Source: a virus
Length of the DNA: 31,302 bases
IMG/VR virus record: IMGVR_UViG_3300045950_000038
Span: 1-31,302 of that record
Reading direction: 5' to 3' (one strand)
The translations under genes were made by a program, and so were the position numbers. Shown here in pieces: positions 2,655 to 29,624 of this stretch. Every line of letters begins with the position of its first letter. Position 1 is the stretch's first letter. The notes beneath the pieces are model-generated. The model was given only the letters and a program-made list of their open reading frames with translations, made no database searches and was not told where the DNA came from.

Positions 2655-4310
2655 TCACCCCTCGATCAGTGATCCGCCATTGGCCCGCCGGGCCAGGGTT
2701 CCGCCGTTCTGCGATTGGCCCAGCCCGCCGCCGTTGGCGCTTTGGCCGGGGAAGGCTGCGCGGCCCGGCGAAAGCGACTGGACGATGCCCGCCGCCGTCC
2801 CGAACAGCGCGACCGTGCCGACCGCCACGCCCCGCGCCAGCGTGCCGCCAGTGGCCGACCCCGTGAAGCCGACGAAACCGGAAGCCGTGCCGCGCGCCGG
2901 GGCTTGGCCGTTGGCGGCCCCCGTGATCGGGAGCAAGCCGGAAGCCGTGCCCACCACGCGCGCCGCGCCGGGGGCAGACCCGGTGAAGGCTATGACGCCA
3001 CTGGCCTGCCCCCGGACGCGCGCCGCGCCGGAAGCCGCTCCGGCAAGCGGGAACGCCCCGGCCGCCACCCCTGTTGCACTGCCAGCCGCCGCGACGGTGC
3101 CGGATGCCGACCCGGCAAGCGGCAGATCGCCCGTGGCCGCCCCCGCCGCCCTTGCTGTTGCAGCGCCGGACCCGGTAATGGGCAATGCGCCAGAGGCCGT
3201 CCCTGAGGCCCGTGCAGCGCCCGTGCCAGTGCCGGTGATGGGCAGCGCCCCTGATGCCTGCCCAGATACCCTTGCGGCCCCTGTGGCGCCACCTGTGAAC
3301 GGCAGGGATCCGCTCGCCTGCCCCGCGACAGGTGCAACCCCCGTCGTGCTGCCGGTCAGGGGCAGACTGCCCGAGGCTGTCCCGGCGGCTCTTGCTGCGC
3401 CCGTCGCCGATCCGGTAAAGGCCATGCTGCCGCTGGCGGTGCCCGTGACGCCTCCGCCACCCGCCCCATACGGGACGAAGATGATGACCGTGCCGTCGCC
3501 GCCGTCGCCGCCATTAGCCACTGTCCCACCGGCATTGATGCACGCACCACCCGCACCGCCGCCGAGACCGTCAGTGCCCGCGCCGGGGGTCGGGCTGGCA
3601 AAAGTGCCACCAGTGCCGCCGCCACCAGTGCCGGGAGTTCCTGCAGCGGACGCACCGGCACCAGCGCCGCCACCACCATAAGTGACTGACGCCCCCGTGA
3701 TCGACGACGCAACACCGTTGCCGCCGTTCTTGCCAGACGCAGCGGCACCAGCGCCACCGCCGCCACCGGAGTTTGAAGTATCTGCTGCGGCTGCACCGCT
3801 GTTGCCTTGCCCGGCAGTTCCAGAACCACCACTGCCCGGAGAACCGCCGTCTCCACCGCCGCCACCGCCGCCAGAACCACCCGAAAGGCCAGATTGGTTG
3901 GGGTTGCTCTGGGCACCACCGGCACCGCCACCTACGGCCGCAGCAGGAGCATTTGTGCCGACAATCGACGAGTTGCCGCCGCTTGTTCCACGATTGGCTG
4001 GGTCTGTCGATCCAGTCCCCCCCAGACCCACCGTAACAATGTAACTGGACGCAGTGGCAAGGAAGGTCGAGGTCGTCAGACCCCCGACAACACCGCCGCC
4101 GCCCCCAGCACCTGTGGCAAAGCCATAGTTCGCAGCACCGGAAGCGCCGCCACCCGCAACGATCAGGTAGTAGATCGTCGCCCCCGCTACCGGGGTGAAC
4201 GTCCCGCCGCCCGGTCCCCACTCGAACACCTGCCCGAGAACGCCGTCGAACGTGACGTTCTCGGTGATCGTCGGCGAGCCGGTGTAGGCCGTGATCTGGC
4301 TGGTGGGCAT
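2655..4310 (-). CDS. Glycine-rich tail fibre with 20-residue tandem repeats
   Basis: A 551-aa protein in three parts. Residues 1 to about 85 form a beta domain (MPTSQITAYTGSPTIT, VFEWGPGGGTF, IYYLIVAGGG). Residues about 86-285 are a glycine-rich domain with runs such as GGSGGGGGGG and an end in GGDGGDGTVIIFVPYG, as in phage fibre adhesins that fold into a polyglycine-II sandwich. Residues 290-513 hold eleven tandem copies of about 20 residues (consensus GTASGxLPxTGxATGAARxx), followed by a short Asn/Gly-rich tail. The N-terminal part most likely attaches to the tail tip. It resembles the second glycine-rich protein at 5237-6340. Host-receptor binding is inferred. Confidence 0.8.
   Translation of the reverse strand: MPTSQITAYTGSPTITENVTFDGVLGQVFEWGPGGGTFTPVAGATIYYLIVAGGGASGAANYGFATGAGGGGGVVGGLTTSTFLATASSYIVTVGLGGTGSTDPANRGTSGGNSSIVGTNAPAAAVGGGAGGAQSNPNQSGLSGGSGGGGGGGDGGSPGSGGSGTAGQGNSGAAAADTSNSGGGGGAGAAASGKNGGNGVASSITGASVTYGGGGAGAGASAAGTPGTGGGGTGGTFASPTPGAGTDGLGGGAGGACINAGGTVANGGDGGDGTVIIFVPYGAGGGGVTGTASGSMAFTGSATGAARAAGTASGSLPLTGSTTGVAPVAGQASGSLPFTGGATGAARVSGQASGALPITGTGTGAARASGTASGALPITGSGAATARAAGAATGDLPLAGSASGTVAAAGSATGVAAGAFPLAGAASGAARVRGQASGVIAFTGSAPGAARVVGTASGLLPITGAANGQAPARGTASGFVGFTGSATGGTLARGVAVGTVALFGTAAGIVQSLSPGRAAFPGQSANGGGLGQSQNGGTLARRANGGSLIEG
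2772..3443 (-). repeat. 60-bp tandem repeats inside the fibre gene (11 copies)
   Basis: This region encodes residues 290-513 of the glycine-rich fibre as eleven head-to-tail units. Ten are 60 bp and one, the seventh, is 72 bp, carrying four extra residues (GVAAGAF in place of a plain GxLP). Each unit reads roughly G(T/Q)ASG-xLPxTG-xATG-AARxx. The copies differ at the DNA level, so the array is old or kept in frame by selection. Unit-length steps suggest expansion and contraction by recombination without loss of frame. Confidence 0.85.
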
Positions 4311-5236: not shown

Positions 5237-6340
5237 TCAGATCCAGACGCGGACTTCTCCGCGCGCGCCGGCACCGTTTTCGCCGCCGCCACCGCCAGGC
5301 GCGCTGCCCGCGGTGTTGGGCGCACCGCCACGGCCGCCGTTAAGCGAATAACCTCCTATACCGCTGGACCCGGAAGAGCCTACGCGACCACCTCCGCCAG
5401 CGCCGCCAAGGACTGCATTTCCGCCGTTTCCGCCCGAGTTCGAAGCGCCGCCGCCACCGCCGCCACCGCCGCCGCCCCACAGGGTTTGGGCGTTCCCGCC
5501 TGCCCCGCCGACGACCGACGCCCCGGCGGTGCCGCCAGGTCCGCCCCCGACAGGACCCCAGGAACTGGCATTTGCCGCAGCAAGCTCGCCACCGCCGCCG
5601 CCGCCAGCTCCTCCGGTACTGCCGGAGCCGCTCGTGCCGCGCCCTCCGCCAAATGCGGTCGCAAGCGCCCCGAACGATGTGTTCCCCCCATTTGAAAGCA
5701 CAGCGCCACCCGCACCGATGGTGACGCTGACGCTTGTCGGCACGTCTGCGGCTCGGCGTCTGATGGAAGAGTAGCCGCCTCCGCCACCACCACCCCCGCC
5801 GGCGGTAGAGACACTTGTCCCGCCGCCGCCGCCACCACCCCAAAGCTCGACCGTGATCATCGTGTCGTCATCAAGACCGGCAGGCTTGTTCCATGTTCCG
5901 GATGCCGTGAACTGCCAGTAGTAGCGCGCCCCGCCGCCACCTGCCGCCGACAGAAGCGGGCTGAGGATACGGAACGCGCCGCCAATGTATTCCAGAAGGC
6001 TGCGCAGGCCGGCTCCGATTGACCCGGCGATCAGTGCGCTTCCCGCCGCGTCCAGGACCGGAACGGCCGCCCCGCCGTTCAACGCCAGAGTCACCCCGGC
6101 GGTGTTGGCAGCGCCCCAGGTGATCTGGAACTTCATCCCGTCGACCAGACCGCCTCCATCCAGCGCAGGGTCCAACGTCGCCGTCACCGCGTTCGCAGTT
6201 CCGCCAACCGCCGTCAAGGGCAGGGCCGATGCATCGAAAAGCGTCTTGAACCGTTCGGAATACTGCCGCAACAGCCCGGACGCGCCGCCGCCCGGCAGGG
6301 GCGGCGGCGTCAGATCGCTGAACGTGGTTCTGCTTGCCAT
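5237..6340 (-). CDS. Glycine-rich tail fibre / adhesin
   Basis: A 367-aa protein. Residues 1 to about 140 are a mixed domain (LLRQYSERFKTLFDAS, GMKFQITWGAANTAGVTLALNG) that likely attaches to the tail tip. Residues about 141-170 form a beta stretch (YYWQFTASGTWNKPAGLD, TMITVELWGGGGGG). The remainder is a glycine-rich domain with long Gly runs, ending GARGEVRVWI. The SGTWNKP...ITVELWGGGGGG motif followed by a polyglycine body is a well-known phage adhesin architecture. It starts 7 nt after the stop of the J gene, where the first distal tail fibre is expected. It probably contacts the host surface. Confidence 0.82.
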   Translation of the reverse strand: MASRTTFSDLTPPPLPGGGASGLLRQYSERFKTLFDASALPLTAVGGTANAVTATLDPALDGGGLVDGMKFQITWGAANTAGVTLALNGGAAVPVLDAAGSALIAGSIGAGLRSLLEYIGGAFRILSPLLSAAGGGGARYYWQFTASGTWNKPAGLDDDTMITVELWGGGGGGGTSVSTAGGGGGGGGGYSSIRRRAADVPTSVSVTIGAGGAVLSNGGNTSFGALATAFGGGRGTSGSGSTGGAGGGGGGELAAANASSWGPVGGGPGGTAGASVVGGAGGNAQTLWGGGGGGGGGGASNSGGNGGNAVLGGAGGGGRVGSSGSSGIGGYSLNGGRGGAPNTAGSAPGGGGGENGAGARGEVRVWI

Positions 6341-9936: not shown

Positions 9937-10568
9937 GGCGTGAAGTAGATCCTGCGTTTCACCCCGCCCGGGGCGGTGGCCGGGATGTCTCCTGCCCCGA
10001 TCACCACGCCGGCGGTGAAGCTTTCCACGTCTCCGGTCGATACCGAGTAGACATCGAAGGTTCCGGTCACCGACGGCAGCGCGCTGGCTGCGACCTTGCC
10101 ACCGGCAATTCCGTAGATGCCGGAGTCCCAGTCCGCGACGACCTGCGGCACGACCGACTGACCTGGTCTCACGTATGGCGCCCACCATGGGGTCCCGGGA
10201 AGCCGCATCAGCTTTACCGTAAGGTCATGCAGGTCGGCCCCCCGCGGCAGCAGATCGTAAAGCCGACCACCGTTGCCAAGGATCTTCCAAAGGGCCGGAT
10301 CCCCGAATACCGGGTCTCGCCAGCTGAACGCATTCACGCCGCCGGCGAGATCGTCCGCAAGAAACGACCTGAAGGCCTGGACGGCCGTCAGACGCAGATT
10401 GCGGAATGTCGCATCGAAGGTCGCGGGGGCCGCCGTAGTGCGCGCACGCAGGATCGGCGGGCCGTACTCGGTCGAGAAGCTCGCTCGCGTATCCAGCGGA
10501 CCACCGTTGAACCCCTCGCGGCGCGGCAACTGCGGCATGGCCACCGGCCAGGCGGGCGGAACCGGCAT
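9933..10568 (-). CDS. Minor tail protein, unknown family
   Basis: A 211-aa protein between tape measure and DUF1833, the position of lambda gpM. Visible features are an N-terminal proline-rich start (MPVPPAWPVAMPQLPRREGF), the block VNAFSWRDPVFGDPALWKI, a WWAPYVRPGQ segment, and a C-terminal beta part ending VKRRIYFTP. Its TGATG overlap with the tape measure stop and ATGA overlap with the next gene suggest tight co-translation. It is likely a distal tail protein or tip component. The family is not recognised. Confidence 0.68.
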   Translation of the reverse strand: MPVPPAWPVAMPQLPRREGFNGGPLDTRASFSTEYGPPILRARTTAAPATFDATFRNLRLTAVQAFRSFLADDLAGGVNAFSWRDPVFGDPALWKILGNGGRLYDLLPRGADLHDLTVKLMRLPGTPWWAPYVRPGQSVVPQVVADWDSGIYGIAGGKVAASALPSVTGTFDVYSVSTGDVESFTAGVVIGAGDIPATAPGGVKRRIYFTP

Positions 10569-12517
10569 CAGCGCTTCACCGGCATGGGCTTGCTGCCGAA
10601 ACGGCTGCGCAACGCGCTGTCCTGCCGCCCGCTCGCAAAGGATTCGCTGATCAGCACATCCACCTGCCGCTCACCTCTGGGCCCGCGCCTTTCGCTGCTT
10701 TGAACGACTCCGGTCGTCTGGTTGATCACGTTGACCTGCACATTGGATCCCCCGCCGCCACCCTGCGCCATGACCCCGAGCTTCCCGCCGATCCTGGTCA
10801 GCGGCATGATAGCCTCCGGGCCGGCCTCGCCCATCACGCCCATCCCGTTCTTCATCGGAAACATCGTCGCACTCGATACGATGCCGCCGGCTGCGAAGGC
10901 CTGTACCATGCCGCCCTCGAAGACGTTGCCGTTCGCGTTCATAAGCGGAATGAACCCGCTGGACCCGAATACGCGCGGGAAGGATTTCGCCAGCTCCGCA
11001 TAGAGCGCCATCTGGAGCAACTGCTTGGCCAGGTCCTTCAGGGCGGCGGCAGGATCGTCGAACACGTTGTCGAAGGCGCTGCGGATCGTACTGCCCGCCT
11101 TCTTGCCAAGATCACCGGTCTTGCTCAGGTCCTTGCCAAGCTTCTCGACCGCGCGATTGTAGGTCTCCGTGTCCAGATGGCCGGACTTGTGCAGATCGTT
11201 CAGCTTTTCCAGCTCGATTGCATACTTTTCGGCAGCGGTGCGCGTCTGGTCGTAGATGCGCGCTGCTTCCCGCTCGGCCTGACTGACGCCGCCACCACCG
11301 CCGCCACCGCCACGCCGTCCGCCGCCCCCACCCCGGCGAGCCGGTCTCGGATTCAGCATGGCATCTGCTTCCGCCACGACTTCCGGCGAGGGAACGAAAG
11401 GTGTGGCACCGCCGCCCATGAACTGCCGCGGGTCGCCCCTGGCACCGACCTTGCCATAGGTCATATGGGCGCGGTTGAAGGCGTTCTGCGCCGCCGCGGC
11501 ATCCCACAGGTTCGAAGCCAGGCCGCCGGCCTCTGCCGCCGCGGCGCTGATCGGCGATGCGATATCGACGGCAGCCAGACCCAGCGCCGCGAGCTCTGCA
11601 TCCGTCAGGTTCTGAAGAAGAACTATCGCTTCCTCGCTCAGAACCCCGCCCGCAGCGGCGGCATCGATGATCGCGGCGCGCACCCCAGCCATGGCATCAG
11701 CCTGCGCACGGGGGCCTTCGGCCGTGGAAAGCGCCTGCAAGGCATCCACCAGCGCCAAGACCTTTGCCTCGTTGCCATCGAATGCCAAGCCGAAAGAATC
11801 CGCGATATTGGCGAGCGTGGTGCGGTAGTCCTCCTCCAAGTACTCGAGCTGCACCCGCGCCGAAGCGAAGTTGAACTCAAATGCCCCATTGGGGTTAGCT
11901 TCTGCCTGGGCGATCTCGGCACGAAGGGCGGCGATCTTCGCCCGCAGCGCGTCAACGTCCTCTGGCCGGCCGAACATCTCGGCAATCGCGCCGCTGGTCT
12001 TGACCAGTGCATTCTGCGTCCGTGCCGCCGCGATCTGGCGCTGGATCTCCAATACCTCGCGGGCCTGCGCCGCCCCGGCGCCGAAGTCGCCGAACAGCTT
12101 CTCCGGATCGACCTTTGCCGCATTGGTCGCCGATCTCAGCGCGCTCATCGCACTGTTCAGGTCGTTGACCGACGCTTCCAGCTCTTTCGCCTTGTCGGTC
12201 CCCATGCCGAAGGCCGCAAACAACGGGATCGCGACGGCTGTCACCGTGCCGAACAGCACGCCGACCAGTCCAAGGCCTGACAGAAGTTGCGGCAACTGCT
12301 GCGCCAGGGCGCGGCTCACGTCAGTGCCGGCGGCAACCTGAACGGCAAAGTCCTGGACCTGAAAGCCGACGTTCTGCAGCGCCTGTCCGCCGCCGCGCGC
12401 GCCTCGGTCGATCGCACCAAAGCTTTTCTGGGCCTCCGCTCCGATCGACTGGAACTCGGCTTTCAGCTGACTGGCGCCCTCAGCCTTGATCCGGACCGAT
12501 ACCTGCTTCTCTGCCAT
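10568..12517 (-). CDS. Tail tape measure protein
   Basis: A 649-aa protein. It has an N-terminal alpha-helical region (VSVRIKAEGASQLKAEFQSIG), a hydrophobic segment (about residues 80-105, SGLGLVGVLFGTVTAVAIPLF), long helical coiled-coil stretches, a Gly/Arg-rich linker near residue 395-415 and a C-terminal FPMKNGMGVMGEAGPEAIMPL motif typical of tape measure C-termini. It sets tail length and later leaves the tail during DNA entry. At the usual 0.15 nm per residue this length would suggest a tail of roughly 95-100 nm. The gene overlaps the end of the frameshifted chaperone ORF by 38 nt; a GAGG lies just before the ATG at 12517. Confidence 0.9.
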   Translation of the reverse strand: MAEKQVSVRIKAEGASQLKAEFQSIGAEAQKSFGAIDRGARGGGQALQNVGFQVQDFAVQVAAGTDVSRALAQQLPQLLSGLGLVGVLFGTVTAVAIPLFAAFGMGTDKAKELEASVNDLNSAMSALRSATNAAKVDPEKLFGDFGAGAAQAREVLEIQRQIAAARTQNALVKTSGAIAEMFGRPEDVDALRAKIAALRAEIAQAEANPNGAFEFNFASARVQLEYLEEDYRTTLANIADSFGLAFDGNEAKVLALVDALQALSTAEGPRAQADAMAGVRAAIIDAAAAGGVLSEEAIVLLQNLTDAELAALGLAAVDIASPISAAAAEAGGLASNLWDAAAAQNAFNRAHMTYGKVGARGDPRQFMGGGATPFVPSPEVVAEADAMLNPRPARRGGGGGRRGGGGGGGGVSQAEREAARIYDQTRTAAEKYAIELEKLNDLHKSGHLDTETYNRAVEKLGKDLSKTGDLGKKAGSTIRSAFDNVFDDPAAALKDLAKQLLQMALYAELAKSFPRVFGSSGFIPLMNANGNVFEGGMVQAFAAGGIVSSATMFPMKNGMGVMGEAGPEAIMPLTRIGGKLGVMAQGGGGGSNVQVNVINQTTGVVQSSERRGPRGERQVDVLISESFASGRQDSALRSRFGSKPMPVKR

Positions 12518-12833
12518 GTTCCTCGGTGTCCTGGTTGTGGACCTTGATCAGCACTGCCTCAAGCGAAGGCATCACTTCGCAGACCAGCGCCCCCGACAGG
12601 CCGGCGGCATTGGCCATGGCCAGAACGGCCGTCATGTCGAACCCGATCATGGCGCCAGGAATGGCGCGCACCTGACGACCGGCGCGCAGGAACAGATCCC
12701 ACAGCGCCCAGCCCTCTGGCGTGACGGGTTCGTTCAGTGAGTAGGGGCACTCGGCGCAGGGGCTTGCGCATCCGGCGCAGTAGTCTTGTCCACCACCCGG
12801 GCGGAGGTGCCATTCTGCCCGGGCGACGAGACG
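12480..12833 (-). CDS. -1 frameshift extension of the tail assembly chaperone (T-like part)
   Basis: This open frame of 117 codons has no start at its beginning and joins the 12734-13192 gene by a -1 shift at 12833-12839. Its translation starts RLVARAEWHL, contains a four-cysteine cluster CAGCASPCAEC (encoded at 12747-12779, CxxC-x3-CxxC), then YSLNEPVTPEGWALWDLFLRAG, which resembles a conserved phage protein located between tail tube and tape measure. A plain ORF call would begin at the internal ATG at 12671 (63 aa) and lose the cysteines. As in lambda gpGT, the fusion (about 237 aa) would bind tail tube and tape measure during assembly. Frame and motif are read directly; function is inferred from lambda-like synteny. 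Confidence 0.8.
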   Translation of the reverse strand, partial: RLVARAEWHLRPGGGQDYCAGCASPCAECPYSLNEPVTPEGWALWDLFLRAGRQVRAIPGAMIGFDMTAVLAMANAAGLSGALVCEVMPSLEAVLIKVHNQDTEEHGREAGIGPDQG

Positions 12834-13192
12834 TTTTTTTCCGCGTCCAGCGTCAGTCGCGGGCTGACATAGGCGCCATCGAAGGCCTTGAGGAACTGGT
12901 AGATCGACATCAGTGCGGCGACACCTTCCGGCGTGCAGGCGAGGGGATCGCCATTTTCGTCGCCGACGCCTTCCCAGTCGATGATGGCGTGCCGGGCGAC
13001 TGCCAGGTTGAAGCGCAGCCCAAGATCCTCGGGCTGCAACGGCTCGCCATCCTGCGGCAGATCTGCGATCTCACGGCGATAGTCGGCCCGGATGGCAAGC
13101 ATCAGCGCCGAGGTAAAGGGAAGGACCTTGACGCGGACACCGCTGCCAAGGTCGATCCAGACGGGTTCGGTCAGAGCGGGAAGCCGGATCAT
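12734..13192 (-). CDS. Tail assembly chaperone (gpG-like), unshifted product
   Basis: A 152-aa protein encoded between tail tube and tape measure, the place of lambda gpG. It opens MIRLPALTEPVWIDLGSGV and carries a mostly helical body (DYRREIADLP, GLRFNLAVARHAI, MSIYQFLKAFDG). The last 30 residues (after DAEKN) are a low-complexity Ser/Pro/Ala tail that is replaced when ribosomes shift at the A AAA AAC heptamer spanning codons 118-120. The ATG at 13192 overlaps the tail tube stop as TGATG; the frame open upstream to 14254 is a shadow of the tube gene. The short product should be the major one, as for gpG. Confidence 0.85.
   Translation of the reverse strand: MIRLPALTEPVWIDLGSGVRVKVLPFTSALMLAIRADYRREIADLPQDGEPLQPEDLGLRFNLAVARHAIIDWEGVGDENGDPLACTPEGVAALMSIYQFLKAFDGAYVSPRLTLDAEKNVSSPGQNGTSARVVDKTTAPDAQAPAPSAPTH
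12795..12839 (-). promoter_or_regulatory. Programmed -1 ribosomal frameshift signal
   Basis: On the minus strand the reading frame runs GAA AAA AAC GTC, so the heptamer A AAA AAC (12839-12833) is set in the canonical X XXY YYZ phase. After a 9-nt spacer comes CCCGGGC (12823-12817), a 14-nt loop, and GCCCGGG (12802-12796): seven G-C pairs, with a possible G-U pair extending the stem. Heptamer, spacing and stem all meet the established rules for -1 frameshifting. The -1 frame is open for 117 codons to the stop at 12480. Confidence 0.88.
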
Positions 13193-14130
13193 CAGTAGCT
13201 CGCAACCGTGTTGGTCAGGACAGCGGTGCACATCCGGGCAGGACTGACAGCCTTCGCAGCCTGCCATTCGAACTCTGCGCGTATACCGTTCGGCCCCTCG
13301 ACCGCAATCTTGGGGCGCGGCAGATAGACTGCGTGGGCGGTGAACTGGAACTGCGCGTTGGCCCCCAGGCTGTAGAGCGAAACGATCTCGCAGGACGCAC
13401 CGTTGATCGCCTGCGTCAGCAGCGTCGTGTCTGCGAACCGCGCGACGATCCGCCCTGTCAGGCTGGCAATGGTCGGATCGGCCCCGTCGATCTTGCCGTC
13501 GGCGCGGATGGTCTCCACGCGGTCCACGTTGTTGGAATAGATGAACTCGGCGCTTTCGATGTTGCCAAGCGCCGACGCATCCCTGCTGATCGACCCGTTG
13601 AAATGGCCGAATCGCGTCAGGGTATAGCTGGTCGGCGTGCCGGCGCCGGAACTGGTAGCAACGTTCTCGCCCTGCGCGACAACGTCCACGTCCATCCGCA
13701 GCTGGCCGGACCGTTCCATGTTCCAGCGGAGACGGTCCACCACACAGCCGACATTCATCGCATAGTGCGGCACTTCGGGATAGCCCATCTCGATCGCCAT
13801 CGAGGGCAGCGAGGTGGCGCCCGACTGGAACGTGTGCACCTTCGGCGTGGTTCCAGTCGTGGTCGGGCTGCCGAACGCACCCTTCAGCCAGACCCCCAGA
13901 TTCTCGACATCGATCGGCACGCTGATCCTGCCGCCCGCCGTGACCGCATCCTTGATCGGGGCCAGCGGATCGCGGCCGAAGCCCAGAAGCTCGTTCTCGA
14001 TCAGGGGCTGCTCTGCTCCTGCGTTCGCGCTGGCGAAGGGCATGGTCCGGTACCCGCTCGCGGGCGCGGTTCCATAGACGCTTTCGAACGCGACGTTCAT
14101 CTGCGCGCGCGATCCATAGGCTCGTGCCAT
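13192..14130 (-). CDS. Major tail tube protein
   Basis: A 312-aa protein with the pattern of the phage tail tube family 2 proteins: MARAYGSRAQMNVAFESVYGT at the start, EQPLIENELLGFGRDPL, GRISVPIDVENLGVWLKGAFG, and a C-terminal domain that includes RADGKIDGADPTI and FEWQAAKAV. Such proteins stack as hexameric rings around the tape measure to form the non-contractile tube. It lies between the tail terminator and the tail chaperone, as expected. GGAG is 6 nt before the ATG at 14130. An Ig-like decoration may be included in the C-terminal third. Confidence 0.85.
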   Translation of the reverse strand: MARAYGSRAQMNVAFESVYGTAPASGYRTMPFASANAGAEQPLIENELLGFGRDPLAPIKDAVTAGGRISVPIDVENLGVWLKGAFGSPTTTGTTPKVHTFQSGATSLPSMAIEMGYPEVPHYAMNVGCVVDRLRWNMERSGQLRMDVDVVAQGENVATSSGAGTPTSYTLTRFGHFNGSISRDASALGNIESAEFIYSNNVDRVETIRADGKIDGADPTIASLTGRIVARFADTTLLTQAINGASCEIVSLYSLGANAQFQFTAHAVYLPRPKIAVEGPNGIRAEFEWQAAKAVSPARMCTAVLTNTVASY

Positions 14131-15987: not shown

Positions 15988-18057
15988 TCACGCGCCCGGG
16001 TTGCGCCATCCGCCGCGCCAGTCGATGGCGCCGACACCGAAATCGCGTTCCACGCTGTAGCGGACACCCTGCATGCCGAAGGGCTCTTCCATCCGCAACC
16101 TGGGACCCTCGTCGCCCTGCAGGAAGCCGTGCATGAACAGGGCCTGCACGCCGGGATCCGGCAACAGATACCATGCGTTACCGGTGATCTTCGGCGTCGA
16201 GACCACGGTCAGGCGACCGGAGAAGGGGTTGACGCCGGACGACTGGTTGGGCGTGATCGTCTCCACGAGCTGCTGCGCTTCGGTCAACTTGTCGGGCCCC
16301 ACCAGAAGAATGGACGGGGTCAGCGCAAGGTCTTCGCCGTTGATCCCCTTGTGCTTCTGGATCGCCGCGCGCCCGGCACCAAGGGAGGCAACGGTGATCG
16401 CGGCGCCGGACGCGGCCAGCGTCGCATCTGTCGTGTTGAAAACGGCACGACCGGTTTCGGTCAGCGTGGGACCAGCACCGGAACCCGTGAGCATCATGGC
16501 GAAGAAGTTCGCTTCCTCCGTCCTCGCCACGGCGGCGCCCTGCGTCGTCAGCATCCGGTCCATCGCGCCGAGATCGTCGTTCACGATCATCTGGCGGGTG
16601 AAGCCGACGGCGATGGCCAGAGCCACCAGGGCAACGGTCTCCTTCTTGTCGCCGATGGTGCCATACTTGATCTCACCCTTCTCGTTCACCGGCTGCAGAA
16701 GCGGCATCGATCCGGTGTTCACCATCGGGTGGGGCCGGAAGTCGGTGAAGTCTGCGCGCATGGAGATCTGGCTGTACACCGGAGTGGCCAGCTGATAGCC
16801 CGCGATGAGGCGCTTGTTCAGGGCGTTCTCGAACACCGCCGGAAAGTCGCTGGTGGTGTGCATGGCGCTCATGAACACGTCGAGCTTGTCCTGTGCAGTG
16901 CGCACGCGGCCCTTGTGCCCGATGGCCTGGGCCGCCATCTCGACCAGCGTCAGATCCATGTAGGGCCTTGCCTGATCGCTTTCCGGATCCGTGCGGCCAA
17001 GCTGGGCGACGATGGCCTGCCCCATGCCGGTCCGCATCGTCTCGCGCTCGTCGCGCAGGATCCTGGCCGTGGTACGGCCCTGCATCGGAATGTCCATGTC
17101 GCCCTGTTCCTTCCACTTGGCGTTGATCTGGTCGAGGCAGGTTTCCAGCGAAGCCGTGCTTCCGATCAGTTCGGAAGCAAAGGCAATCGGCAGGCCGGCC
17201 ATTGCCACAGCGTCGGTGATCCGCTTGGCGCGGGCATTCGCAGCGGCGAAGGCGCGCGCGGTCGCCTTCTCCGCTTCGAGGTCGTGCGTGTCATTCTGCG
17301 ACGCATCGTCGGCCTCGATCATGTCGAGTTCGTCGTCTTCGACTGCGGCGGTCACCCCCGCAGGCTTCTGCGCTTTCTGTCCCATCGAGGGCTCCTTTCC
17401 GGTGGTGCGGGGCAGGCCCGCGATCATGGCCATGACGGCCGAGCGCCCCGGAGCGGGTGCCCCGAGGGATTCCGACGCCTCGCGCAGGTCCTGCGGCGCG
17501 GTGGCATAGATGCGATAGTCGAACCTTGCGGCCGGTGCGGCCGGCTCATCGACCTCGACACGAGTCGCAAAGCCGAGATCTACCGCCATGGTTCCGTCCA
17601 TGACGGTTTCTTCCCGCATGATCTTCCGGGCGTCTTCCCGGCTGAGACCGCTACGGTCCGCGTAGATGTCGGCATAGGCGTTCGAGATGACCGCCAGAAG
17701 GTCGGCTTCCTTCCGGTGATCATCCTCGGTCCCCCGGCCCATCGTCCATGGCGTCGCCGGGTCGTGGATCAGCATCCACGCGCCAAGTCGCATGATGATC
17801 TCTTCCCCTGCCATTGCGATCAGCGATGCCGCAGACGCGGCCACGCCATCGACCTGAACAGTGACTTTTCCGGGATAGTCCTTCAGGGCGGTGTAGATTG
17901 CCTGCCCTTCGGTTGCTATTCCACCACCCGAGTTGATGCGGACAAGCAGGTCACCGGACATCCCCGCCAGTTTCTCGCGAACCTGCTTGGCGGTGAAGTA
18001 ATCCTCATCCCACCAGGATGCGCCGACCGTCCCGTAAAGCGTCAGCTCATTCATCAT
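15988..18057 (-). CDS. ClpP-like prohead protease / major capsid protein fusion
   Basis: A 689-aa fusion. Residues 1 to about 200 are an S14 (ClpP-type) protease with SGGGIATEGQAIY, the nucleophile region GVAASAAS (Ser75) and MLIHDP (His98). Residues about 225-320 are a charged helical scaffold-like segment (DDELDMIEADD, DLEAEKATARAFAAANARAK). Residues about 330-689 are a Mu gpT/HK97-fold major capsid protein (TDFRPHPMVNTGSMPLLQ, EANFFAMMLTG, ending AIDWRGGWRNPG). The same fusion is a recognised class in prophages of this group; the protease would shape the scaffold and free the capsid. The first ATG (18057) overlaps the portal stop by 11 nt; the ATG at 18054 has better spacing to GGAG. An internal start at 17385 is listed separately. 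Confidence 0.9.
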   Translation of the reverse strand: MMNELTLYGTVGASWWDEDYFTAKQVREKLAGMSGDLLVRINSGGGIATEGQAIYTALKDYPGKVTVQVDGVAASAASLIAMAGEEIIMRLGAWMLIHDPATPWTMGRGTEDDHRKEADLLAVISNAYADIYADRSGLSREDARKIMREETVMDGTMAVDLGFATRVEVDEPAAPAARFDYRIYATAPQDLREASESLGAPAPGRSAVMAMIAGLPRTTGKEPSMGQKAQKPAGVTAAVEDDELDMIEADDASQNDTHDLEAEKATARAFAAANARAKRITDAVAMAGLPIAFASELIGSTASLETCLDQINAKWKEQGDMDIPMQGRTTARILRDERETMRTGMGQAIVAQLGRTDPESDQARPYMDLTLVEMAAQAIGHKGRVRTAQDKLDVFMSAMHTTSDFPAVFENALNKRLIAGYQLATPVYSQISMRADFTDFRPHPMVNTGSMPLLQPVNEKGEIKYGTIGDKKETVALVALAIAVGFTRQMIVNDDLGAMDRMLTTQGAAVARTEEANFFAMMLTGSGAGPTLTETGRAVFNTTDATLAASGAAITVASLGAGRAAIQKHKGINGEDLALTPSILLVGPDKLTEAQQLVETITPNQSSGVNPFSGRLTVVSTPKITGNAWYLLPDPGVQALFMHGFLQGDEGPRLRMEEPFGMQGVRYSVERDFGVGAIDWRGGWRNPGA
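17383..17400 (-). promoter_or_regulatory. Internal ribosome binding site for scaffold-capsid product
   Basis: On the minus strand, GGAAAGGAG stands 6 nt before an in-frame ATG at 17385, which encodes Met225 of the protease-capsid fusion (MGQKAQKP). It is a stronger Shine-Dalgarno than that of the full-length gene. It sits exactly at the junction between protease and scaffold, so translation from it would give a 465-aa scaffold plus capsid without protease, as with the nested C/Nu3 and Mu I/Z genes. Use in vivo is inferred. Confidence 0.7.
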
Positions 18058-28573: not shown

Positions 28574-28833
28574 GCCACCACCTCCGCCCCAGCGGGGCCT
28601 GTCTTCGGAACCGGAGCCCCGGCAACGGGACAGGCAGCGCCGCCGCCGGCCCGCAGAACGCATCGCACCCATGCCACAAGGTCCGGATGCGGCGATCCGT
28701 CGTCCGCCACGACGGCATCGCGGGCCAGCAATGCGTCGAACCCGGCAAGGTCGGTCTCGGACAGACGCGGCAGGATCGCCTTCAGCCCCGCCCTGTAGCC
28801 CGAAACCAGCGAGATCCGCAGCAGGTCGCTCAT
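28570..28833 (-). CDS. Small early phage protein, unknown
   Basis: An 87-aa protein: MSDLLRISLVSGYRAGLKAILPRLS, ETDLAGFDALLARDAVV, HPDLVAWVRCVLRAG, then a Gly/Ala/Pro-rich tail. It lies between the ParB-like and DUF6378 genes with ATGA overlaps at both ends. The N-terminal helical repeat is regular, but no family is recognised. Confidence 0.6.
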   Translation of the reverse strand: MSDLLRISLVSGYRAGLKAILPRLSETDLAGFDALLARDAVVADDGSPHPDLVAWVRCVLRAGGGAACPVAGAPVPKTGPAGAEVVA

Positions 28834-29624
28834 GCGGTCACCCCCGCCCTGGCGATGAGATTGCACAGCCCCTTGCGCCCGCCATTGGCGCCCGAGGTCT
28901 CCAGGATCTTGAACGGATTGGCCATGGACAGGGCGCGCAGCAGGACATCGAAATCCGGGCAGCCTGCGTCGCCGACGGCCGTGATCCACGGCCGCAACAG
29001 GAAATCGGTATAGGCGACTGGACGCTCGGCCAGCGACGGCGCATTCGCGATCGCCTGCAGGCCCAGCGTGATCGCCCGGTCGTTGCCGGCCTCGACCTGC
29101 CTCCGGATGAACCCGATGCAATAGACCTGCCGCGCCTGCTTCTGCGCGCCCGTGGTGTTGTAGGTCATCAGCCTGCAACCCGCCGCCGAGACCGCCGCAT
29201 CGGCCCGCAGCGCCCAGTCCTCGCCCGCGGCCAGCGCCGCCTTGAGGACGTGGAAACCCGTGACACGGATCTGCTGGCTGTTGATCCAGGCGAAGGCGCG
29301 GCTCTGCTCCTCGAGTCCGACCTGCACCACCATCGCCGGAACCTCGGCCAGCCCGCACAGCGCGGCGGCATGGACCCGATGCTGTCCGTCGATGATGGCA
29401 AACATGCCGCCCTCGACCGGGGCCACCAGCACCGGCCCGAACCGGCTCCAGCGGAAGTTGGCGGCGATCCTGTGGATCGACTTCCAGTTGCCCTTGGACA
29501 GCGGGCGCTGATAGCGATCGTCGATCACCATCCGCTCCAGCCCGATCCACTGCAACATCGGTGCCGGTCCGGGTGCGGCCTCGACCGGATCGTGCCCCCC
29601 GATATCGATGCCGCGCCGGGTCAT
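28830..29624 (-). CDS. ParB-like N-terminal domain protein
   Basis: A 264-aa protein. Residues about 25-110 carry a ParB/sulfiredoxin-type fold: LERMVIDDRYQRPLSKGN, FGPVLVAPVEGGMFAIIDGQHR (DGQHR at 79-83, the phosphate/CTP-binding-like box), AALCGLAEVPAMVVQV. The remaining 150 residues are helical (FAWINSQQIRVTGFHVLKAAL, QARQVYCIGFIRRQV) and differ from chromosomal ParB, and no ParA gene is present, so classical partitioning is unlikely. Proteins of this domain in phages may be DNA binders, nucleases or transcription regulators. It is the longest gene of the early operon before the replication proteins. It starts at ATG 29624 within an ATGA overlap. Confidence 0.8.
   Translation of the reverse strand: MTRRGIDIGGHDPVEAAPGPAPMLQWIGLERMVIDDRYQRPLSKGNWKSIHRIAANFRWSRFGPVLVAPVEGGMFAIIDGQHRVHAAALCGLAEVPAMVVQVGLEEQSRAFAWINSQQIRVTGFHVLKAALAAGEDWALRADAAVSAAGCRLMTYNTTGAQKQARQVYCIGFIRRQVEAGNDRAITLGLQAIANAPSLAERPVAYTDFLLRPWITAVGDAGCPDFDVLLRALSMANPFKILETSGANGGRKGLCNLIARAGVTA

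Follow-up and report, generated by a model that had tools for sequence, protein, structure and literature searches.

A probable G/GT-type -1 frameshift tail chaperone with a conserved four-cysteine head in a viral genome

Introduction

Is the frame that follows the tail chaperone gene of this virus translated through a programmed -1 frameshift, and what would be the role of the four cysteines that such a shift adds to the protein? The DNA analysed, hereafter the window, is a 31,302-nt virus record from IMG/VR with the G/GT locus on its minus strand. A sequence-only reading had proposed a frameshift of the lambda G/GT kind and, at the boundary of the two parts, a metal-binding knuckle. We compared the locus with two sets of relatives with respect to slip site, RNA structure, substitution pattern and cysteines. 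The sequence evidence points, with a probability of roughly 93%, to a programmed -1 frameshift tail chaperone of the lambda G/GT type whose T part carries a Cys4 module, most likely zinc-binding. The frameshift itself is an ordinary member of the G/GT type, and Rhodobacter phage records already give it as a joined gene; less familiar is the Cys4 head right after the shift, which is conserved and lies outside the matching Pfam and PHROG models.

Results

The locus

Features of the locus are listed in Table 1. The gene order, tail tube, G, T and tape measure, is that of G/GT-type frameshift chaperones, and the last 38 nt of T are shared with the start of the tape measure gene. The -1 frame is open from a stop at 13073 to the stop at 12482-12480. 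Translation bore out the slip site, the 117 open codons and the fusion described earlier (120 + 117 = 237 aa), as well as the CxxC-x3-CxxC cluster after the shift. The in-frame start at 12671, previously given as ATG, reads GTG. Upstream of it, no ATG, GTG or TTG occurs within the open -1 frame of the window, so the cysteine segment cannot be reached from a common start without a shift.

Table 1. Features of the G/GT locus in the window.
Feature	Coordinates	Strand	Basis or detail
Tail tube protein	13192..14130	-	Pfam PF18906 Phage_tube_2, E 1.5e-49; directly upstream of G
G, tail assembly chaperone, 152 aa, made by normal translation	12734..13192	-	ORF; PHROG 313, E 3.8e-16
Slippery heptamer A AAA AAC, in phase with G	12833..12839	-	X XXY YYZ phase
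Downstream hairpin	12791..12828	-	Predicted fold, arms 12828-12817 / 12802-12791
GT fusion, 237 aa (predicted)	12480..13192	-	13192-12833 in frame 0, then 12833-12480 in frame -1
Four-cysteine cluster CAGCASPCAEC, start of T	12747..12779	-	C-x2-C-x3-C-x2-C
T core, DUF7697 (PF24752)	12516..12662	-	Pfam match 55.1 bits, cut-off 27 bits
Tape measure protein	10568..12517	-	PHROG 1716 and others

Elsewhere in the window, a single 689-aa ORF (15988-18057) is a fusion of a ClpP-type protease (PF00574) and a capsid protein (PF25209). Close to the tail end are two long Gly/Ala-rich ORFs (2655-4310 and 5237-6340), perhaps parts of a tail fibre or adhesin; the second has a sub-threshold match to Gly_rich_2 (PF21722). 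Near the early genes, an ORF at 28830-29624 resembles ParB and DUF6551, both matches being under the Pfam cut-off.

Relatives

A tblastn search returned 16 phage records and three plasmid records; 11 of the phage records belong to Rhodobacter capsulatus phages, with about 38% identity (37-39%). A single-protein scan of viral contigs with the fusion as query gave no confirmed relative. In RcKemmy and RcFrancesLouise the fusion is annotated as a two-piece joined CDS, "tail assembly chaperone". The earlier statement that a standard ORF call misses the extension holds for simple callers, but curated Rhodobacter phage records already contain the frameshifted protein. Seven database relatives were translated and kept out of the counts given below. 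Their heads read approximately KR(L/I)xALxxWHFGxGxxYCxxCxxxCxxCP immediately after the slip site, which is GGGAAAC in two Rhodobacter phages and a run of A in the other five; in MT836000 the third and fourth cysteines have a different spacing.

Two larger sets of loci were assembled. The pattern set was collected with a degenerate DNA pattern for WHFGxGxxYC, slip site not included, and comprised at least 234 loci among the matches listed (120 viral and 114 genomic stretches). Sixteen of the 234 were dropped as non-homologous or too short, leaving 218, and removal of 11 duplicates gave 207 unique loci. Fixed by the pattern are W, H, F, G, G, Y, the greater part of the first cysteine (C1) and just a few hairpin bases, whereas C2-C4 and the heptamer are left free. 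Loci of the DUF7697 set were chosen solely by the core downstream of the cysteines (105 loci, one duplicate, 104 unique); they are the best-scoring of a longer list plus 40 regions hand-picked from lower down, and include loci from five genomes reached through loci. There is a slight overlap between the sets, as some DUF7697 loci come from genomes that the pattern set had already brought up. One class had DUF7697 matches in 11 of 385 genomes, one family in 90 of 394 and another order in 16 of 347.

Conservation of the slip site

AAAAAAC occurs once on the two strands of the window, against an expectation of 0.77, so its presence by itself is weak evidence; phase, place and conservation are what make it convincing. 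In 204 of the 207 unique pattern relatives among the matches listed, an in-phase XXXYYYZ lies at a distance of exactly 21 nt ahead of the same Trp codon, with 115 AAAAAAC, 79 GGGAAAC, 8 AAAAAAA and 2 AAAAAAG. The three misses are one GTGAAAC (L114) and two sites that contain an N (L167 and L210). The DUF7697 set gave a similar picture: among the matches listed, 102 of 104 unique loci have four or more cysteines as well as the heptamer, and in 101 of 104 the G frame is one ahead of the T frame. The conservation check proposed in the sequence-only reading thus came out positive for heptamer and cysteines in both locus sets, and for the hairpin in the family test described below.

A few loci depart from this arrangement. 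Signal was absent from L256 and L329, which we read as decayed remnants. In L256, head and core are in different frames close to a transposase-like ORF; in L329, tail-tube-like sequence runs into the T core, with G and head absent. The slip site of L296/L355 has eight A, which is either an in-frame fusion that occurs naturally or a sequencing error in the homopolymer. The eight A put G and T of L296 in one frame, and the shift is therefore not universal.

Downstream hairpin

The hairpin of the window begins 4-9 nt after the slip site and ends just before C1. Its all-GC core is the 7-bp stem reported earlier (12823-12817 with 12802-12796). The predicted energy of -27.2 kcal/mol is within chance (z -1.24 vs. 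dinucleotide shuffles, 27 of 200 of which fold as well; z -0.53 vs. synonymous recoding). Taken alone, the window hairpin is not exceptional for GC-rich sequence, and its conservation is shown by the family comparison alone.

That comparison was based on per-sequence folds and on synonymous controls, which preserve the T-frame protein and not the G tail. A stretch of 54 nt around the Trp codon, folded for 70 representatives, had a mean z of -1.80 relative to synonymous recodings (65 below 0, 52 below -1), vs. -0.19 and -0.18 for two downstream control windows in the same representatives. Column-wise permutation of synonymous codons in 182 sequences gave a mean of -24.8 kcal/mol for the native sequences vs. 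-21.1 kcal/mol for the permuted ones (sd 0.2, 15 permutations). A single RNAalifold consensus of the family hairpin was poor, apparently due to a hairpin register that differs by a bulge. Downstream RNA structure is thus kept in the family, with a putative role in stimulating the slip.

These results bear on whether the -1 frame might be supplied by transcriptional slippage on the A7 run rather than by slipping ribosomes. The window and the AAAAAAC class do have an A run, some slippage on the A7 of the window would be allowed, and the eight A of L296 give G and T in one frame. However, 79 of the 207 relatives among the matches listed use GGGAAAC, with just three A, at the same position; such sites without a long A run favour ribosomal over transcriptional slippage, and a kept hairpin also suits ribosomal shifting. 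We regard slippage during transcription as very improbable.

Overlap layouts and selection on the two frames

The layouts of the 204 pattern loci among the matches listed are bimodal, with either an immediate G stop or a long overlap. In 98 of the 204 the G stop falls one codon past the slip site, and in 106 G and T overlap by 20-57 codons. The window belongs to the second layout, so its cysteines are also read as G tail: most of the cluster is dual-read, the G frame translating the same stretch as a Ser/Ala/Pro-rich tail.

Substitutions were counted by codon position in both layouts; because the pairs are not independent, the counts show direction and carry no significance test. Before the site, long-overlap pairs (766 pairs, 101 loci) have 10097 substitutions at G-frame position 3 and 5518 and 4756 at the others; after the site, the same pairs have 6844 at T-frame position 3, compared with 3603 at position 1 and 3841 at position 2. 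The position bias thus switches from the G frame to the T frame at the slip site. Where G stops at once (1383 pairs, 95 loci), the T-frame bias is stronger than with the long overlap, with 13497 at position 3 vs. 2592 and 4345. The stretch from the slip site to the T core is among the most conserved parts of T. Together, the counts and this conservation indicate that the -1 frame is under selection at the protein level.

The same evidence speaks to the possibility that T is a separate protein made from the internal GTG at 12671, with the -1 reading upstream of it untranslated. Such a start would fit the Pfam and PHROG models, which match the core alone, and the annotation of Nostoc phage Nsp-JY21, where the locus is given as two separate ORFs, the second one short. 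Against it stand the high conservation of the segment between slip site and core, the T-frame third-position substitutions, and the scarcity of start codons between slip site and C1, found in just 2 of 204 loci among the matches listed; in 123 of 204, also among the matches listed, the open T frame has no ATG, GTG or TTG at or before C1. We therefore consider an internal start scarcely credible.

The Cys4 head and the T protein

At least four cysteines are present in 202 of 204 pattern loci among the matches listed; L044 has three and L126 breaks off. Their spacings vary, with (2,3,2) in 98 loci among the matches listed, (2,6,3) in 54, (2,6,11) in 15 and others in fewer. The Cys4 head probably binds a metal, likely zinc. 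Alternatively, the cysteines could make up a redox-active or Fe-S cluster, or could be retained for the sake of the hairpin or of the G frame that overlaps them. The hairpin does end just before C1, and the cysteines are dual-coded in long-overlap loci, yet they persist despite widely varying spacing and also in the set with 98 immediate-G-stop loci, so neither hairpin nor G tail demands them. This persistence across spacings and layouts does not separate zinc from Fe-S, and overall we judge a non-zinc explanation unlikely.

An AlphaFold2 model built on 70 aligned T parts is mostly helical (pLDDT 93.0, pTM 0.83), with pLDDT 84-85 for residues 11-30 around the cysteine segment. Foldseek against viral structures gave weak matches only (best E 0.037), among them tape measure chaperones and the Loki tail chaperone. 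Searches of the PDB by sequence and by fold returned no significant match for T, an absence that does not show a new fold. DUF7697 matches 62 of 70 T members and PHROG 11212 matches 53 of 70, and in the window both match T solely from residue 57-60 on, past the cysteines. DUF1799 (PF08809) scored 16.6 bits with the window and 18.1 bits with T alone, under the Pfam cut-off of 26 bits, and NCBIfam contains no relevant model for T. In the accessible part of the open-licence PMC literature on tail chaperones, tail assembly and DUF7697, we found no description of a cysteine module in the shifted T part.

Discussion

The analysis shows the signal in the sequence and its conservation, the coding nature of the -1 frame and the retention of the cysteines; we infer the slipping and its frequency, the zinc and the binding partner, and propose the following model. 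Most ribosomes would make G (152 aa), while a minority, aided by the hairpin, would move back by one base on A AAA AAC and so produce GT (237 aa). If the lambda model applies here, G would coat the tape measure protein, and the scarce GT molecules would bring tail tube protein to the G-coated tape measure, where the tube would polymerise to a set length. The Cys4 module at the start of T, most likely holding a structural zinc, may cap the T N-terminus; the capped T could then be held in a defined orientation to G, or the module could form part of the tube-recruiting surface.

A further suggestion, which we make tentatively and consider possible rather than probable, is that, in a large phage lineage found mainly in Alphaproteobacteria, the shift opens up a zinc module tied to the slip site, with slip site, hairpin and Cys4 start in one short stretch, and that the Cys4 fold is needed for tube recruitment by GT. 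If so, tail assembly and tail length would be zinc-dependent. The mechanism by which T couples tape measure and tube is poorly resolved, and the head is a conserved element of this protein. Its position outside the family models examined probably reflects that only shifted translation produces it. If DUF7697 and PHROG 11212 were extended upstream to take in the slip site, annotation would be repaired in many prophages and T function would gain a clear mutational handle.

Comparison with known systems

Gene order, a kept in-phase heptamer, a hairpin, frame-specific substitutions and relatives with a joined CDS strongly support the lambda G/GT arrangement first proposed for this locus. As here, lambda G/GT lies between tail tube and tape measure and shifts by -1 near the end of G to give a T fusion. 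The lambda heptamer is GGGAAAG (J02459) in contrast to AAAAAAC in the window, and lambda T lacks the four-cysteine cluster. In lambda, according to the available part of the published account, G binds the tape measure and T binds the tail tube protein (PMC5009743). The earlier idea that a cysteine knuckle sets the recruitment of the tape measure fits this division poorly and is not supported.

Joined tail chaperone genes are recorded in 2476 of 3679 SEA-PHAGES genomes in the part of that study available (PMC10885494). HK97 gp13/gp14 and gp12/gp13 of Acinetobacter phage Loki are likewise annotated as a joined CDS with a -1 shift, and the Loki slip site is given as AAAAAAC in the accessible text (PMC5313236). 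Unlike the window, the shifted parts of HK97 and Loki have no four-cysteine cluster. The accessible portions of the lambda, Loki and SEA-PHAGES tail chaperone papers (PMC5009743, PMC5313236, PMC10885494) make no mention of a cysteine module in T.

Among the family models, Pfam DUF7697 and PHROG 11212 cover the T core with 52 and 55 positions, short of the Cys4 head, and were probably built on truncated ORFs. Pfam DUF1799 and PHROG 680 are weakly similar to the T core, and the cysteine head is outside the match. RcKemmy, RcFrancesLouise and their kin are direct homologs and share both the hairpin-forming sequence and the four cysteines with the window. The two named phages have the heptamer GGGAAAC where the window has AAAAAAC, and relative to the Rhodobacter phages the window carries a two-residue insertion, WHLRPGGG for WHFGKG.
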